A stretch of DNA of 50,752 nucleotides from Sulfurovaceae bacterium (GTDB lineage: Bacteria; Campylobacterota; Campylobacteria; Campylobacterales; Sulfurovaceae): NCBI GenBank assembly GCA_028715055.1, contig JAQTLE010000003.1:323462-374213 (forward strand), in the 5' to 3' direction. The notes under the pieces are model-generated. The model had not been told where the DNA came from. It ran no database searches and saw only the letters and a program-made list of their open reading frames with translations. Below, one piece after another: positions 22,589 to 42,665 of the stretch. Numbering within the stretch: the stretch's first letter is position 1; every line of letters starts with the position of its first letter. The translations under genes were made by a program, and so were the position numbers.

Positions 22589-23329
22589 TTATGCTGCATA
22601 GATCTCTATACCTTCATCTATTAGAACTGTAAGGATATTTCTAATCATTTCGTATGTGCCTGTAGTCGAAAGCGAACATCCGGAACAACTACCCATATAC
22701 AACATTCTTATTTCAATGTTTTGCATATTTTTGACTTCGAGAAGCAATATATCCCCGCCATCTTTAAGCAATGTAGGCTTGATGTGTTCGTCTATAGCTT
22801 CTTGGATCATGGTGAATTGAGTTTCGTTTGATTTAGAGCGAAAAATTTCATTATATTGTTCTTTCGGCAATTCAACATTTCTGCCAATTCCTCCTATCTT
22901 TGCCATAGCCATAGGATGTCCGTTTTTTGCTGCGAACAGCAGATACTCGAATCCTTCTTTTAAAAGATCGATATTGTCTTTTTTGTCTAAAAGCATAAGG
23001 GCTAATCTAAAATTTGCTCCAATGTGTCCATTTGAAGCTGCATGCTTAAAGTATGTCAACGTCAAAGCATCATCTTTTTCTACTCCTATGGCATTTTGAT
23101 ACATGAGAGCGACGTTATAATATGCAGAAGCATTATTGTAAATGATAGCTTGTTCAAACCAGTCTTTTGATAGCACAGGATCCTGTGCGACCCCTTCGCC
23201 TTTAAGATAAAGAAGACCGATATTTACCATAGCTTGATCATTGCCTCTTGAAGCTTCTTCTTTCCATATCAAAAAAGCTTTTTCATATTTTTTTTGTTTG
23301 TAAAATGCTAATGCTTGAACATGACTCAT
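22589..23329 (-). CDS. Sel1-repeat / Nfu (NifU C-terminal) fusion protein
   Basis: A 246-residue fusion. Residues 1-160 are Sel1/TPR-like helical repeats (AMVNIGLLYLKGEGVAQD, ASAYYNVALMYQNAIGVEKD, IGANFRLALMLLDKK, AMAKIGG). Residues 175-246 form an Nfu domain: ESIxxxIxPxLxxDGGD-type EHIKPTLLKDGGDILLLEV, then the cluster motif GSCSGCSLS. Nfu domains carry 4Fe-4S clusters to target proteins. The IscU-like and central 2Fe-2S domains of full NifU are absent, and no nifU or nifS is in the window. The start has an AAGGTGTTTT site. First gene after the sigma-54 promoter at 23363-23378. Confidence 0.88.
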   Translation of the reverse strand: MSHVQALAFYKQKKYEKAFLIWKEEASRGNDQAMVNIGLLYLKGEGVAQDPVLSKDWFEQAIIYNNASAYYNVALMYQNAIGVEKDDALTLTYFKHAASNGHIGANFRLALMLLDKKDNIDLLKEGFEYLLFAAKNGHPMAMAKIGGIGRNVELPKEQYNEIFRSKSNETQFTMIQEAIDEHIKPTLLKDGGDILLLEVKNMQNIEIRMLYMGSCSGCSLSTTGTYEMIRNILTVLIDEGIEIYAA

Positions 23330-35095: not shown

Positions 35096-35542
35096 TTATA
35101 ATATTTTACGGAACGGTACCATCGAAGATAAAGAAAAATGATTTTTTTTGTAAAACTTATGAGCTTTTATATTTATTCCGTCAGTTAGAAGTGTGATGCG
35201 TTTTAAACCTTGTGATCCAGCAAACTCAAGCGCATAATCCATCAGCATGGATCCGAAGCCTTTATTTTGATACTCATGATCGATTATCATATCTTCGAGT
35301 AATCCGACTTTTTCATTGAGGGCCGTAGAAAATGTATACAAAATCGTAACCATGCCAATGATTTTATCGGATACCTCAATGACTAATATATGTCCTAATT
35401 GCGGAGAATCAATAAGTGTTTTTAATGCATTTCCTTGTTTTTTTTGTTCATAAGAAAATTCTGCTTCTTGTTCAAAAAGAATCTTAAGTAAATCGCATAG
35501 CTCATAAATATCATCTAAAAGAGCTAGCCTTTGAGTGATCAA
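35096..35542 (-). CDS. GNAT-family N-acetyltransferase
   Basis: 148 residues with the whole GNAT pattern: VIEVSDKIIGMVTILY, VGLLEDMIIDHEYQNKGFGSMLM (acetyl-CoA loop YQNKGFGS) and RITLLTDGINIKAHKFYKKNHF. The substrate is unknown. The TTG start (35542) overlaps the clpX stop (TTGA) and has AAGGAAG ahead, so it is translated with clpX. Last gene of the nifA operon. Confidence 0.88.
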   Translation of the reverse strand: MITQRLALLDDIYELCDLLKILFEQEAEFSYEQKKQGNALKTLIDSPQLGHILVIEVSDKIIGMVTILYTFSTALNEKVGLLEDMIIDHEYQNKGFGSMLMDYALEFAGSQGLKRITLLTDGINIKAHKFYKKNHFSLSSMVPFRKIL

Positions 35543-36756
35543 TTGGCTTCCTTTTGAAGCTTATATTCCAGTTTGACAGCTTCTTTATTTTCGATAAATT
35601 CTTTAGTGATGATGCATTTTGAGATATTTGATTTTGATGGAAGATCAAATTGAAGCGGCAGCATGATTTTTTCTATAATTCCTCTTAGCCCTCTAGCCCC
35701 AACTTCTTTTTCTTCCGCAAGATTAGCAATATATTCAAGCGCGTCTTGTGTAAATTCCAAATCTATCCCATCAAGTTCAAAAAGAACCTCGTATTGTTTA
35801 ATAATTGCATTTTGTGGCTCTTGTAAAACTCTGATAAGGTCTTGTGCGCTTAATGCGTTCAGTTTTGCGATTACAGGAATTCGTCCTATAAATTCAGGTA
35901 TCATTCCAAATGCTATTAGATCTTTTGGCACAATATCTTTGGGTAATTGATCATTTTTTTCTTCTTTTAAAAAACCCATGGTATTTACGGTTTTTTTCTT
36001 TTGGTTTAAAACACCATTTTCTAAACCGACAAATGCTCCACCGCATATAAATAATACATGTGTTGTATCAAATATAATAGTTTCAGCTGATGAGTTTTTG
36101 CGTCCGCCTTTGATTGGTACATAAACTTCTGCGCCTTCTAGTATTTTTAGCAAACCTTGCTGCACCCCTTCGCCGGATACGTCACGCCCGCTTGTTGCGC
36201 TTTCGCTTTTATGTGCAATTTTGTCAATCTCGTCTATATAGACAATACCTTTTTGAGCTTTTTCTATATCATAATCAGCTGCAACCAATAACCTTGACAA
36301 GATTGATTCTACATCTTCTCCTACATATCCTGCTTCGGTTAATGCTGTCGCATCAGCTATCGCAAATGGAACATTCATGATTTTTGCCAAAGATTTTGCC
36401 AGTAATGTTTTACCGCTTCCTGTAGGGCCTATCAACAAAATATTACTTTTTTCTATCTCTATTTGTTTGATCTTTGGCTTATCGATTCGTTTATAATGAT
36501 TGTACAATGCTACTGCTAAGACTTTTTTGGCTTCCTCTTGCCCGATCACATACTTGTCAAGATGTATTTTTATATCATGAGGAAGTGCAAGACCTTTTTG
36601 AAATTCCTCTTTATGATTTTCTAGTTGGAATCTATGCCATTCTTCGTGACATGTATCTATACATTCATTACAAATGTGTGCATTTTCTGCACTAAAAATT
36701 TTTGTCACATTGTCTATGCTTTTGCCACAGAAATCACAAATTTTATCGCTTTTCAC
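35539..36756 (-). CDS. clpX: ATP-dependent unfoldase ClpX in the nif cluster
   Basis: 405 residues, a complete ClpX: zinc-binding domain [18 protein letters not shown], Walker [15 protein letters not shown], Walker [12 protein letters not shown], pore loop GYVGEDV, MGF in the place of the ClpP-binding IGF loop, and GARGLRG sensor 2. It delivers proteins to ClpP or remodels them. In Azotobacter a nif-linked ClpX2 controls NifB and NifEN levels (established). No clpP is in the window. The GTG start (36756) overlaps the SIR2-like stop by one base, with AAAGGATTATA ahead. Possibly a second, nif-specific copy. Confidence 0.93.
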
Positions 36757-37577
36757 TATAATCCTTTGATAAAATCCTCTAATCCAAGTGCTACCTTAGA
36801 TAAATTATGAGTAGCGACAAATCGCTCTTCTTTTTTACTCAACAAATTTTTATCATCAACTATATAGCCGTCATTTAGTCCCAAAGTTAATTCATTGGCT
36901 ACCATCCGATATGTATCTTTGGAAAAATCAACACCCAAAAACAGATATGATCTTCCTTCCTTGTACCTTTTTAATAAAGGTGGCATTGCAAACCCGGCCA
37001 TAGCTTCTGTAAGCCAATCTACAAAATCGGCGTCACTGATAATAAAATTCTTTCGCGGCATAGTCGAACCTAGAGGTTTAAATAAGATCGGGATAGAAGT
37101 GTTTAAATCTTCTTTGTAGATTTCATTATAGTTTTTTGTATTTACGTCATATTTATAGATGATGAATCTATCCTGGCTGCCCATGATCCTAGAAATTCCA
37201 ACTATCATGAAATGTTCTACATCTTCATATATTTTACAAGCGCTATCATCAAGATTGGTATCTATCATATATTTTGGTTGCACAGTTTTTAGATATTGAT
37301 ATATAGGCGGAAGTTCATATTGTTTAGAGCTGTAGATATGGTTTGTCATTTCAACTATAAATTCTCTGCCTTTTCGTTGCTCCAAGCTCATTGCTACTCT
37401 TGTATATTCATACATTAATCTTGTGCTCATAGGTCGATTATCATTAAGGGCGAGTGACATGCTGTCACTATCAAACGGCAATATGCTTCCATCGGATGCG
37501 ATCGCACCTTTAAATACTCCCATACCTAAAAACGGTATCAAAGTACCATTTACTAACGTTTCTTTAATTTTATCCAT
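36756..37577 (-). CDS. SIR2-like domain protein in the nifA operon
   Basis: 273 residues. The order of SIR2_2-type motifs is visible: LIPFLGMGVFKG (for the GAGxS nucleotide loop), KYMIDTNLDDSACKIYE (for TTNxDxxxE), ILFKPLGST (where HG is usual), FIISDADFVDWLTEAM and RSYLFLGVDFSKDTYRMV. The catalytic His-Gly pair is replaced by Leu-Gly, so deacylase activity is doubtful; NAD or ADP-ribose binding is still possible. The ATG 37577 has AGGAG 9 bases before; the frame continues to a TTG at 37586. Overlaps the Tpx-like gene by 8 bases. Confidence 0.7.
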   Translation of the reverse strand: MDKIKETLVNGTLIPFLGMGVFKGAIASDGSILPFDSDSMSLALNDNRPMSTRLMYEYTRVAMSLEQRKGREFIVEMTNHIYSSKQYELPPIYQYLKTVQPKYMIDTNLDDSACKIYEDVEHFMIVGISRIMGSQDRFIIYKYDVNTKNYNEIYKEDLNTSIPILFKPLGSTMPRKNFIISDADFVDWLTEAMAGFAMPPLLKRYKEGRSYLFLGVDFSKDTYRMVANELTLGLNDGYIVDDKNLLSKKEERFVATHNLSKVALGLEDFIKGL

Positions 37578-38103
37578 GACATCCAACTCCTGTATATATA
37601 GAAAATGCTTTATTAAGTGCGATATGCAGCTTTTCTAAATTTATTCCATCTGACATGTCAGATGGAATATCGACATAAAAAACAGCACCATCTTTGCTGA
37701 TCAAAAAAAGAGATTTACAAAGAAGATCAGTTAAGCTGCCTTCTATTATTTTTGTTCCATACCATGTACCAAATTCATCATAAGTATCATATGCCACCTG
37801 CAGGGCTTTTAAATGTTTTTGCAGCTTTTCAGCCCTTTGCCATGGTTTATTTATAATAAGATAACTTTGAATAGGAACCTGCGATTGACCTAGAAGTTCA
37901 TCTATTTGCATGATCTCATTTTTAAATTCCAAATTAGGAACTGAAAACAAAATAGTCATATTAATATTTTTTGAACTTCTTTGGATTGTAAACTTATTGG
38001 CATTTGGAGTGCTTATTGCAATGTTTCTTGCCATATATCCTTCTTCCATAGCATCGTCTATTAGGGTTAATACTTCATCATGATAAGTTATTTTGTTAGA
38101 CAT
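37570..38103 (-). CDS. Thiol-peroxidase (Tpx)-like fold protein lacking the catalytic cysteines
   Basis: 177 residues. The Tpx pattern can be followed: ILFSVPNLEFKNEIMQIDELL (Tpx: VPSLDTxVCDxQTRRFNEE), PIQSYLIINKPWQRAEKLQK (Tpx: resolving-cysteine helix), DEFGTWYGTKIIEGSLTDLL and KSLFLISKDGAVFYVDIP. Neither the peroxidatic nor the resolving cysteine is kept. Remaining cysteines are in DLLCKSL and the C-terminal GVGCHG. It is therefore not expected to be a classical peroxidase. An AAAAGGAGCAATAAA site precedes the ATG. Directly follows nifA by 13 bases. Confidence 0.7.
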   Translation of the reverse strand: MSNKITYHDEVLTLIDDAMEEGYMARNIAISTPNANKFTIQRSSKNINMTILFSVPNLEFKNEIMQIDELLGQSQVPIQSYLIINKPWQRAEKLQKHLKALQVAYDTYDEFGTWYGTKIIEGSLTDLLCKSLFLISKDGAVFYVDIPSDMSDGINLEKLHIALNKAFSIYTGVGCHG

Positions 38104-38116
38104 TTTATTGCTCCTT

Positions 38117-39472
38117 TTATTTTTTGGATGCTAAAGCAGGTAAAAGCAGCTGCATTTCTTCAGCGCTAATTCCATCGTCACTGCCCATTAGAACTATTCT
38201 TTCGATTGTGTTTTCGAGTTCTCTGATATTGCCAGGCCACTTATATGACATGAGTTCGTTCATCGCTTCTTCGGTTATGACTATCTTTTTTTTGTGATTT
38301 TTCATTGAACGCTCCAAAAAGAAATTAACCAAAAGCTTTATATCTTCCCCTCTTTCTCTAAGAGGCGGCATATCTATCGGTATTACGTTTAGTCGGTAGT
38401 AGAGATCCTCGCGAAATTTTCCTTCTTTGACCATTTCTTCAAGATTTCGATTTGTTGCGGCTATCAATCTCACATTAACTTTAATAGTTTTACTACCTCC
38501 TATACGTTCAAATTCTCTCTCTTGAAGAACTCTTAAAAGTTTGACTTGTGCAGAAGCGGAAATATCTCCGATTTCATCTAGAAATAGCGTACCTCCATGT
38601 GCCAGCTCAAAACGTCCTTTACGCATTTCTTTTGCATCCGTAAAAGCACCTTTTTCATGTCCAAATAGTTCACTCTCTATTAAGCTATCAGCAATTGCGG
38701 CACAATTTATTTTTACGAACGGTTCATCTGCTCTCTTGCTTCGTTTATGAATCGCAGCAGCGACAAGTTCTTTGCCTGTACCGGTCTCTCCTCGCACAAG
38801 TACTGTTACATCACTTTGCGCTATGCGATTAATAATCTTATATATGATTTGCATTTGTGTGCTATCGCCGATAATATCTCCAAAATTATGTACTTTAGAA
38901 TCCCATTCCATTTTGTAGTACTGTTTTAGGTCTTGGAGATGTTCTTTTTCTTGCGACAAAATATATTGTGCATGTAAAAAATGACCCAAAAGCGAACCTA
39001 TAATAGAAAGAATTTTGACTGTCTCATCAAAATCAATCTCAGTAGATTTAGTCAAATTAGCTGCCAACACCCCCCATACTTTATTTTCTACAAGCATAGG
39101 TACTGCAATGTATGAGATAGTTTCAGCATTTCTATTCCCGGATTTGTTTAAAAATAATGTATCGTTATGAATATTTGCAATTACTATAGGTTCTTTGTTT
39201 TTGGCTGCTAATCCTGTAGCCCCTTCTCCTATATGATATTCTGACATTGCTTGCTGATATTTATTGAAGCCATTGGCTATATATATGTGCAGTTTCTCAT
39301 CAGATTCAAGTCTATAAATAGCGCAATTTTCAAGTTGCAACGATTCTTTGAGGGCGGCTAGCGAGCGCTCGGCTGATTTAACTGCATCACGGGAGTCTGA
39401 GATATTCATAGCAATATCATAAAGTACGGATAACTCACGATTGCTTAGACAAGTTTTGCAGTTTGGCAGCAT
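38117..39472 (-). CDS. nifA: NifA-like sigma-54 activator without DNA-binding domain
   Basis: 451 residues. An N-terminal CxxC ([14 protein letters not shown]), a GAF domain at about 15-170, and a complete AAA+ activator domain from about 200: [15 protein letters not shown] (Walker A), [15 protein letters not shown] (GAFTGA-type sigma-54 loop), [13 protein letters not shown] (Walker B), and [16 protein letters not shown]. The protein stops 20-odd residues later ([17 protein letters not shown]) with no C-terminal Fis-type helix-turn-helix. GAF plus AAA+ and its nif location make NifA the best name. The start has an AAAAAGGAAG site. First gene of a five-gene operon. Confidence 0.88.
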
Positions 39473-39777: not shown

Positions 39778-41421
39778 TTAATTATTTGAAAACCATTTTC
39801 TGATTTTGTATAAGAGCTGATTTTCTTTGAACCAAACCCTTAGTTGACCTTTGCTTAATTCTTTTACCATTATATTTTGTTGTTCGTTGTCATTACTTTG
39901 CGGGAAATCCTTGCGATAGTGAGAGCCTCGACTCTCATGTCGTTTCAGCGCCGACAATATTACCGCTTCGGCAATTTCTAGTGCATTTCGCAGTTCAAGT
40001 ATGGCGATGAGTTCTACGTTATTTGTTCTTTCTTTGTTGACGCAGTGCAGTGTTGGCACTTCGCTTCTAAGGTAGCTTATGTAATCGTATGCTTTGATCA
40101 AGCCTTGTTCATCTCTTTGAATCCCGACATTATCAAACATAACTTTGCCTAAACTTATACGCATAGCATTAAAGTTTTTGGTCGTATCTGAGCTAAAAAT
40201 ATGATCAACTAATTTAATATCTTTTATTACATTGCGGTAATCTATAGGTAAAAAATCTTTTGTTTTGGAATGTGCCAAGGCTTTTTGCCCGGCCATTTCC
40301 CCAAAGACCATCCCCTCAAGCAAAGAATTTCCTCCTAGTCTATTGGCTCCGTGTACGCCGTTAGATGCACATTCTCCACAAGCAAACAATCCTTCTATAT
40401 CGGTTTTGACCATATAGGTTTCAATCCCGCCCATAGTATAGTGAGCGACTGGCTTTATGGGCAGCAGTTCTTGACTTATATCAATACCGGCTTGCATGTA
40501 AGCTGTTTTATACAGTGCCGGAAGTTTGGTTTCTATAATCTCTTTAGGCAAGTGTCTTAGATCCAAAAATACTTCTTTGCCGTTTTCTATCTGATTCATT
40601 ATGGATCTAGCGACTATATCTCTAGCACCAAGTTCATCTACAAATCTTTTTCCATCGCCATTAATAAGATATCCTCCTTCACCTCTGGCTGCTTCGCTTA
40701 CTAAATAATTTGTTTTTACAAAACCTGTTGGATGAAATTGTACGAACTCCATGTCTTTTAAATGCAATCCCATTCTTAAACCAATAGCCAATAGGTCGCC
40801 AGTGTAGTCTTGTGCATTTGTACTGTATCCTCTATAGATCCCTGCATATCCTCCACCTGCTAAAATAACTGATTTTGCAGGATAAACAATTACTGAAGAA
40901 TCAGATCTTCTGAGCGCGACAATACCGCTTATTTTGTGATCAAGTGTTGTTAGATTCATTGCAAAATTATTTACTAAAAACTTTATGCCTTTATCGTTTG
41001 CATTTTTTATCAAAACTTGAGTAATTTCTGCACCCGTTTTGTCACCGATAAAACATGTTCTTTTACTACGCCCACCGCCAAAACTTCTTTGTAATATATT
41101 CCCATGCTCATCGCGATCAAATTTTACGCCCATATTGACTAGTTTTTCTATCATCTTAGGTGCACGATAACACATATATGAGATAGTTTTTTTATCGCCA
41201 AGACCATAAGCTCCTATGAGCGTATCATTAATATGTTGTTCAATCGCTACAGAATCATCAGCATCCAATACCGCATTTATGCCCCCACTCGCAAGTGCAC
41301 TATTTGATTTAAAGATATTTCCTTTCGTCATTACCGCAACTCTATTATTATCAGTTTTGGCTTCAATGGCTGCCATAAGCCCGGCTATTCCGCCTCCGAT
41401 TACGATCACATCATACATCAT
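39778..41421 (-). CDS. FAD flavoprotein of the fumarate reductase / L-aspartate oxidase family
   Basis: 547 residues. FAD Rossmann motif DVIVIGGGIAGLMAAIEA, substrate-site segments MEFVQFHPTGF, RGEGGYLINGDGKRF, ARDIVARSI, VAHYTMGGIETY and GANRLGGNSLLEGMVFG are all present, so it could dehydrogenate or reduce a dicarboxylate. It lacks partner iron-sulfur subunits nearby, which speaks for a soluble NadB-like or stand-alone enzyme. The start overlaps the aldo/keto reductase stop by 4 bases. Control by the sigma-54 promoter at 42650 links it to nitrogen fixation; the substrate is unknown. Confidence 0.82.
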   Translation of the reverse strand: MMYDVIVIGGGIAGLMAAIEAKTDNNRVAVMTKGNIFKSNSALASGGINAVLDADDSVAIEQHINDTLIGAYGLGDKKTISYMCYRAPKMIEKLVNMGVKFDRDEHGNILQRSFGGGRSKRTCFIGDKTGAEITQVLIKNANDKGIKFLVNNFAMNLTTLDHKISGIVALRRSDSSVIVYPAKSVILAGGGYAGIYRGYSTNAQDYTGDLLAIGLRMGLHLKDMEFVQFHPTGFVKTNYLVSEAARGEGGYLINGDGKRFVDELGARDIVARSIMNQIENGKEVFLDLRHLPKEIIETKLPALYKTAYMQAGIDISQELLPIKPVAHYTMGGIETYMVKTDIEGLFACGECASNGVHGANRLGGNSLLEGMVFGEMAGQKALAHSKTKDFLPIDYRNVIKDIKLVDHIFSSDTTKNFNAMRISLGKVMFDNVGIQRDEQGLIKAYDYISYLRSEVPTLHCVNKERTNNVELIAILELRNALEIAEAVILSALKRHESRGSHYRKDFPQSNDNEQQNIMVKELSKGQLRVWFKENQLLYKIRKWFSNN

Positions 41422-42524
41422 CTTGGCAACCTGTATAGCAGATCATATTTACTGTTTTTTGCAGGACTAATGGTTGCAATTTTGCAATTTTGCTCCACAT
41501 GATCTTGCCACCTTGTACTAAAGAGAGAACTAACTATCCCAGGCGTGGATCTTACGAACTGGAGAGCTAGCTGGATATCGTTTTCTAGTGTCATGCTTTC
41601 ATCAAGCACAACGCCGATTTCAGCAGCAAAAGACTTTTTAAACAGATGCATTTGAAGCAATGATGAAGATGTTATAACTCCGATACCTAAACGATGAGCT
41701 GCTTGAATCAAGGTGCATTTATCGCCATTTATACTTTGGGTTTCTTGAGTATAGATATTTGTTTTTGCTAAATTGAATGGCGTTTGGATATAGGCAAAGC
41801 GGTGATTTTGGCCACCAACCTCTCTGGCAATAGAAACTAGCTTCTCTAAACTTATATGTTCTATTGTATCAGTGATAAAGGCATTCCATACTGCTACACC
41901 GTAATTTGCAAAGAGTCCTTCATCAGCCAATGTTTCAAATCGTTCGAAGATACTATAAATATTTTTATAAAATGTATCTTGTCCTAATCGAATGAGATGC
42001 ATTTCTGGATTGTGCAAATAATATATATCGAGTTTGTCTATGCCTAGGTTAGCAAGGCTTCTTTTGCACGACCATTCCAAAAAATCCGGTGTCATACAAT
42101 GCTGATCCAGCTCAATATCGTCTTTTGTTGCGAGACCAGAAGATATTATATGCTCATCGATCCATGCATACGGGTTGGAAGGGAATGGAAAATCAAGTGG
42201 AATAAATCCGCCTTTTGAGGCAATGATCAGAGATTTTCTATCAACCTTATTTGATAGAGATGCCAGGACTTTTCCTATCTCTTTTTCACTTTGACCGTAA
42301 CGATAATTGCTTGCAGTATCTATATGGTTTATTCCGTTTAAAATAGCTTTGCTTAAAGGTTCTTCAAATGAAAATAGATAATTTTCTTCTTTATACGGTT
42401 CTGGCCTAAAAGTTCCTAATCCTAATTTAGAAAAAAGCAAATTACGATGTTGGGCATAAAAACCTTTATATTGTGAAAACCCTTTGGCGTATTTCAAAGT
42501 TTTTTCATGTGTAGCACTACTCAT
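41418..42524 (-). CDS. Aldo/keto reductase
   Basis: About 368 residues of the TIM-barrel aldo/keto reductase superfamily: LGLGTFRPEPYKEENY, NGINHIDTASNYRYGQSEKEIGKVLAS with the catalytic Asp and Tyr, SLIIASKGG (lysine), and KLDIYYLHNPEMHL (His position). A C-terminal LALQFVRSTPGIVSSLFSTR fits the cofactor phosphate site. Substrate unknown. The start may be ATG 42524 (GAGATTATTT ahead) or ATG 42536. It overlaps the end of a 33-residue ORF and is followed with 4-base overlap by the flavoprotein. Confidence 0.85.
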   Translation of the reverse strand: MSSATHEKTLKYAKGFSQYKGFYAQHRNLLFSKLGLGTFRPEPYKEENYLFSFEEPLSKAILNGINHIDTASNYRYGQSEKEIGKVLASLSNKVDRKSLIIASKGGFIPLDFPFPSNPYAWIDEHIISSGLATKDDIELDQHCMTPDFLEWSCKRSLANLGIDKLDIYYLHNPEMHLIRLGQDTFYKNIYSIFERFETLADEGLFANYGVAVWNAFITDTIEHISLEKLVSIAREVGGQNHRFAYIQTPFNLAKTNIYTQETQSINGDKCTLIQAAHRLGIGVITSSSLLQMHLFKKSFAAEIGVVLDESMTLENDIQLALQFVRSTPGIVSSLFSTRWQDHVEQNCKIATISPAKNSKYDLLYRLPR

Positions 42525-42615
42525 AAATAATCTCATTTTTTGATGAAAGATAATAAAATAATCTTCCGATCAATAAAAAATAACTTAAGATAGCTCCGCA
42601 GATAACATCAATCAT
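42517..42615 (-). CDS. Small membrane protein, 32-33 aa, translationally coupled to aldo/keto reductase
   Basis: A short frame directly after a sigma-54 promoter: ATG at 42615 (or 42618) with AAAAAGGATT ahead, ending with TAG at 42517-42519 inside the aldo/keto reductase start region. The product begins MIDVICGAILSYFLLIGRLF and ends with a short polar tail, a plausible single membrane helix. Too small to match a family by eye. The ribosome site and the 8-base overlap support translation. Confidence 0.5.
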   Translation of the reverse strand: MIDVICGAILSYFLLIGRLFYYLSSKNEIIYE

Positions 42616-42649: not shown

Positions 42650-42665
42650 TGCAAGAAGTATTCCA
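42650..42665 (-). promoter_or_regulatory. Sigma-54 promoter of the aldo/keto reductase-flavoprotein-nifT operon
   Basis: TGGAATACTTCTTGCA on the minus strand, GG-N10-GC, 32 bases before the small ORF start. It marks the right border of the nif regulon in this window. Confidence 0.8.

Follow-up and report, generated by a model that had tools for sequence, protein, structure and literature searches.

A Tpx-fold protein without the canonical peroxidase site and with an invariant C-terminal Cys-His is encoded beside nif regulatory genes in Campylobacterales

Thiol peroxidase (Tpx) is an atypical 2-Cys peroxiredoxin (NF001808; PDB 2yzh, 9f5v, and 1qxh). The thiol peroxidase Prx-SUH (NF045827) is a selenoprotein family with the motif CxxU (PMC13188914), and in a thiol peroxidase ORF of Campylobacter curvus, the in-frame TGA is placed differently from that in other Sec-containing Tpx (PMC4607533). 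The thioredoxin-fold protein YjbH acts as an adaptor for ClpXP (PMC7253607). In Azotobacter, ClpX2 controls NifB and NifEN according to a work cited in PMC3916325. The R. capsulatus member of a nif-linked SIR2-like family, Rcc03262, disappears in a nifA mutant (PMC6925177).

The DNA analysed here is a 50,752-nucleotide stretch from a Sulfurovaceae bacterium, referred to as the window. An ORF on its minus strand (37570..38103, with an ATG start) encodes a 177-residue protein that has a Tpx fold without the peroxidase active site, and the working name TpxL is used for it. TpxL shares with Tpx the fold (TM 0.84), the length, Pro56, Asp106, Tyr115, and Gly139, but lacks the peroxidatic Cys, the Thr, the Arg, and the resolving Cys, and has an extra invariant C-terminal tail and a place in a nif operon. 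Prx-SUH, which is found in the same order, resembles TpxL in its Tpx fold and in a C-terminal Cys/Sec-His at the matching position. However, Prx-SUH has an intact peroxidatic Cys (Cp) and a CxxC/U tail, whereas TpxL has the terminal Cys-His only, with a second Cys at another spacing in one lineage. YjbH/SpxH of Firmicutes may serve as a functional precedent, with a thioredoxin-superfamily fold and a redox and ClpXP context like those of TpxL, kinship not being implied. Like an adaptor encoded together with ClpX, TpxL lies near a clpX gene in 18 of 20 loci, the adaptor activity itself being putative. The Azotobacter vinelandii ClpX2 is also a second ClpX in a nif context, and the parts of the literature consulted on it describe no TpxL or SIR2L partner. 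Rcc03262 and the SIR2 family proteins of rhizobial symbiosis plasmids belong to the same family as the TpxL neighbour named SIR2L below; unlike in Campylobacterales, no TpxL is annotated beside the SIR2 family gene on the rhizobial and Methylococcus plasmids. No account of a TpxL protein turned up in literature searches.

In a single-sequence phmmer search of PDB, TpxL matched 9f64, the Tpx of H. pylori (E 3e-6). With a profile of the orthologues, the same database gave 13 hits, all of them Tpx chains, the best being 2yzh at 7e-13. The AlphaFold2 model (mean pLDDT 89, pTM 0.88; pLDDT 90.3 with a deeper alignment) matched 2yzh, the Aquifex Tpx, at E 4.4e-16 and a TM of 0.84. Since the phmmer, orthologue-profile, and predicted-model matches all point to Tpx, the fold assignment stands, and the resemblance to Tpx is well above chance. 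Thus, the Tpx-like fold claimed in an earlier sequence-only reading was recovered both by the PDB searches and by the structure prediction and Tpx comparison which that reading had proposed as a check. Pfam Redoxin matched weakly (E 2.3e-4). NF001808 gave 24.4 bits (E 1.6e-5) with a cut-off of 123 bits, and NF045827 gave 29.2 bits (E 5.3e-7) with a cut-off of 298 bits. A mis-called frame was ruled out as an artefact, the frame being open with the same end in more than 50 genomes.

The former P-x-x-x-T-x-x-C site corresponds to residues 55-66, VPNLEFKNEIMQ (37906..37941, minus strand), where Pro56 is the sole residue of the motif retained. The site reads VPNLEFKNEI, without the Cys of P-x-x-x-T-x-x-C. 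The sequence-only reading had matched this same segment to VPSLDTxVCxxQ, and the window sequence agrees with it: the Thr and the peroxidatic Cys are gone. I compared these residues in 41 distinct TpxL orthologues and in 19 ordinary Campylobacterales Tpx. The Cp column has Cys in 19/19 ordinary Tpx and in only one of the 41 orthologues (K in the window); that lone Cys (L048) is isolated, lies in a gapped stretch, and is not accompanied by the Thr. Pro is kept and Thr is lost in all 41 orthologues, while the ordinary Tpx have Pro, Thr, Cp, and Arg in 19/19. The active-site Arg is replaced by Lys in 40/41 orthologues, the residue in the window being Lys130 (37714..37716, minus strand). The resolving Cys of helix 3, present in 18/19 ordinary Tpx, is missing from the window and from 40/41 orthologues, as had been stated for this helix from the window alone. 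Cys129 was also considered as a relocated catalytic Cys and was rejected, as it is found in just 7/41 orthologues. Because TpxL lacks every catalytic feature of Tpx that was examined and scores below all family cut-offs, I do not class it as a peroxidase. On contig C1, the genome of the window also carries a separate, intact Tpx of the ordinary kind (203.6 bits); therefore, TpxL is a paralogue and not the peroxidase of that genome. As judged from the aligned residues, a loss of peroxidase chemistry with retention of the fold is well supported.

All 41 orthologues have the tail Y-[T/N]-G-x-G-C-H followed by at most one further residue, an ending found in 0/20 ordinary Tpx of the first sample. 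In the window, it is YTGVGCHG (residues 170-177; 37573..37596, minus strand). Eleven residues are invariant in 41/41 (G22, Y23, P56, D106, Y115, G139, Y170, G172, G174, C175, and H176), and five of them fall in the last eight positions. The mean column entropy of the tail is 0.36 bits vs 1.75 bits over the whole alignment, while its pLDDT is about 50, so that it is predicted to be flexible. Since Cys175-His176 is invariant, the earlier statement that both redox cysteines were lost holds for the two canonical positions only and goes too far for redox function in general. To read TpxL as a sensor or a binding protein would be natural and would fit the invariant terminal Cys-His. The unvarying pair suggests that TpxL acts as a switch governed by redox state or metal and not as an enzyme.

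The TpxL gene belongs to a tight gene row on the minus strand. Thirteen bases separate it from nifA (38117..39472), which encodes a GAF and sigma-54 activator of 451 amino acids without a C-terminal HTH; the position just after nifA had been noticed from the sequence alone and recurs, with nifA directly upstream on the same strand, in 16/20 loci. The end of TpxL is overlapped by the start of SIR2L, a nif-type SIR2-like gene (PF13289; 36756..37586). The second clpX of the genome, of nif type, follows (35539..36756), a higher-scoring clpX being present on contig C1. The clpX end overlaps an ORF named GNAT-like by eye (35096..35542), which is next to clpX in several loci and is likely to be in the same operon. 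Thus, the genes of the row nifA-TpxL-SIR2L-clpX-GNAT overlap or are 13 bases apart. In 18/20 loci, SIR2L lies no more than 1 kb and clpX no more than 2.4 kb downstream of TpxL. In two genomes (G020 and G075), nifA and TpxL stay together and SIR2L and clpX are located elsewhere. A second lineage has the order small NifX-like ORF (by eye, with no Pfam hit), TpxL, SIR2L, clpP, clpX, and nifS-like, and nifA is absent from its TpxL neighbourhood. The clpP between SIR2L and clpX in this lineage (L077-L080 and L134) makes a complete nif ClpXP pair. A direct partnership of TpxL and NifA is plausible from their adjacency. Since nifA is away from TpxL in the second lineage and SIR2L, clpP, and clpX are near it, the SIR2L/ClpX module is as good a candidate partner as NifA.

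Upstream of nifA, genes for a FrdA/NadB-like flavoprotein and an aldo-keto reductase (39778..42536, minus strand) are conserved with nifA. Nearly every first-lineage locus, with or without TpxL, has them ahead of nifA. A sigma-54-like promoter site, TGGAATACTTCTTGC (42651..42665, minus strand), lies ahead of the aldo-keto reductase gene and is possibly the head of the operon. The window has six TGGAAYN5WTGC sites vs 0.79 expected by shuffling, all within the nif region (21717, 23364, 23382, 26057, 35059, and 42651); by their motif, they are likely to be sigma-54 promoters. The NifA of the window ends after the AAA+ lid and has no helix-turn-helix. NifA is 452-454 amino acids long in Sulfurovum-like relatives and 452 in G125, and the other 11 nifA neighbours encode proteins of 501-520 amino acids with an HTH-like end. 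Elsewhere in the nif cluster of the window, a Sel1-repeat protein is fused to a NifU-like C-terminal domain (22589-23329).

SIR2L adjoins nifT on rhizobial symbiosis plasmids and also occurs in the nif region of a Methylococcus plasmid. The nif-linked SIR2-like family (L081-L084) spans Campylobacterales, rhizobial symbiosis plasmids, and Methylococcus, and its SIR2 NADase His and Asn vary or are missing. The only PDB match of SIR2L is 7uxt, whose KLHG-motif His is replaced by Leu or Met in the Campylobacterales proteins in a weak alignment. On this alignment, SIR2L might have lost NADase activity. A search for a defence role of SIR2L gave no PADLOC match. Two ClpX were found in the genome of the window and in 39/41 TpxL genomes of the order. 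Among nif genomes, at least two ClpX are present in 36/37 with TpxL vs 10/29 without it. Some ten nif genomes lack TpxL while having SIR2L, a second ClpX, or both, so that the module can run without TpxL.

TpxL is nearly confined to nif genomes. Of the 299 genomes of the order, TpxL is present in 41, nifH above the cut-off in 66, and both in 37 (Fisher p 1e-24, with genomes counted as independent despite their kinship). The four TpxL genomes without a full nifH hold incomplete nif loci: in G192 and G271, nifH is present as fragments where contigs end, and in the fragmented assemblies of G129 and G182, TpxL still adjoins SIR2L or nifA. There are 29 nif genomes without TpxL; thus, it is an accessory and not a core nif gene. 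On the basis of gene order and co-occurrence, a role of TpxL in the nif system is strongly supported.

What might this role be? The reading preferred here, to which I would give a probability of roughly 40%, is that TpxL is a regulatory adaptor, a redox- or metal-responsive accessory of a ClpXP/NifA control module of nif. TpxL arose from a thiol peroxidase and, as its lost residues indicate, gave up peroxide reduction, but it kept the Tpx fold and the C-terminal Cys-His. The tail Cys-His may report the redox state, oxygen, or the supply of metal or cluster, and the folded body may dock on a co-encoded partner, which would be NifA, the SIR2-like protein, or the second ClpX. Under bad conditions, nif proteins would be held back or handed to ClpXP. 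The adaptor role, the sensing by the tail, the partner, and the substrate are all putative here. In relatives such as Prx-SUH the same tail site is redox-active, and this counts in favour of the reading. Against it count the nif genomes with SIR2L and/or a second ClpX but no TpxL, the two genomes in which TpxL stays beside nifA apart from SIR2L and clpX, the second lineage with nifA away from TpxL, and the kinship behind the co-occurrence counts; the tail might instead serve a metal site or catalysis. A more specific form of this reading is rather doubtful as a whole: TpxL, SIR2L, (ClpP), and ClpX may form a dedicated nif quality-control module in Campylobacterales diazotrophs, with the C-terminal Cys-His of the peroxidase-derived protein replacing the lost active site as a redox/oxygen switch, by which NifA or proteins of cofactor assembly are passed to a ClpXP dedicated to nif. 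These diazotrophs inhabit oxygen gradients, and protection or shutdown of nitrogenase there is not explained by NifL, which the genome of the window lacks above the cut-off. The literature searched turned up no role of such a protein in nitrogenase protection or shutdown. The conserved, peroxidase-dead TpxL, with its unvarying tail Cys-His and its operon shared with nifA, a SIR2-like gene of nif type, and the second ClpX, is a concrete candidate for nitrogenase control. It is also a peroxiredoxin that lost its old active site and retained a C-terminal Cys-His, which is redox-active in selenoprotein relatives.

An alternative, unlikely but ahead of the others below, is that TpxL handles metal or Fe-S clusters in nitrogenase assembly, with the Cys-His (two per putative homodimer) binding Fe, Mo, or a cluster on a scaffold formed by the Tpx body. 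The invariance of the pair would suit this, as would the place of the second-lineage TpxL between the NifX-like ORF and SIR2L-clpP-clpX-nifS. The tails of ordinary Campylobacterales Tpx may also be Cys-rich and metal-binding in look, e.g., GCGCGCH. However, each chain offers one invariant Cys and one His, no other Cys or His being conserved across the orthologues, and most loci link TpxL to nifA and clpX and not to nifB or nifEN.

Next in likelihood, and also improbable, comes a NifL-like anti-activator that binds NifA directly, without SIR2L or ClpX. It would account for the adjacency of nifA and TpxL in 16/20 loci, including the two from which SIR2L and clpX have moved away, and would fill the place of the NifL missing above the cut-off from this genome; the NCBIfam scan of TpxL itself listed no NifL. 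On the other hand, the second-lineage TpxL is beside SIR2L-clpP-clpX and not nifA, and many nif genomes have nifA but no TpxL.

It is less likely again that TpxL is still an enzyme, a thiol-disulfide reductase or a peroxidase of a novel type, in which the C-terminal Cys-His has taken over catalysis. The matching tail position is Sec in Prx-SUH (CxxU), and Sec is expected only for redox chemistry. On the Prx-SUH model, 178 positions long, TpxL residues 98-175 fall on positions 99-177, with C175 opposite position 177. The second-lineage tail, C-Y-T-G-K-G-C-H, has two Cys (C-x5-C in seven members). However, most members, including the window with its one tail Cys, are without the partner Cys of a CxxC/U pair; the model shows the tail as a short stretch of low confidence; and neither the Thr nor the Arg of the peroxidase site remains. 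The Campylobacterales members of Prx-SUH recovered in this analysis have an intact Cp and, for the most part, the ending SCCG[ST]C[HQ]. Among Campylobacterales Tpx with an intact Cp (L145-L181), many have short Cys-rich tails, such as SCCGTCH, GCGCH, CCGGGCH, GCGCGCH, and others. These tails recur in several places among ordinary Tpx, appearing and vanishing across the tree. When a placement of TpxL inside the tailed Tpx was attempted with tail-free sequences, TpxL formed one clade (100/100) on a long branch. From the alignment, the TpxL tail may be homologous to the Prx-SUH tail, although tails arose or were lost several times in the Tpx tree.

The TpxL family is well delimited. In 397 Campylobacterota genomes, 52 strong matches were found (152-258 bits), and the next matches are at 72 bits, where ordinary Tpx begins. 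In trees, the orthologues are set apart from ordinary Tpx as a single clade (100/100 support). The named relatives are two Sulfurovum MAGs and Sulfurospirillum arcachonense, and a single-sequence contig scan matched only Sulfurovum and Sulfurospirillum. S. arcachonense DSM 9755 (tpxL in L033) can be cultured, is a non-pathogenic diazotroph, and has the operon. A tblastn search found no TpxL on plasmids. The dN/dS of close pairs is about 0.13-0.2 (for example, 0.154/0.783), and by this estimate TpxL is evolving under purifying selection. That TpxL is a decaying, functionless Tpx copy would fit the loss of active-site residues and the TpxL fragment in a decaying nif region of one genome (G130), but it is very improbable and was ruled out by the dN/dS and the conservation, with open frames in more than 50 genomes, eleven invariant residues (five in the tail), and a stable operon position. 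In the G130 region (L142; G130:C1:1426500-1436700), which seems to be decaying, SIR2L and nifH have in-frame stops, nifV is split, and TpxL survives as a fragment only.
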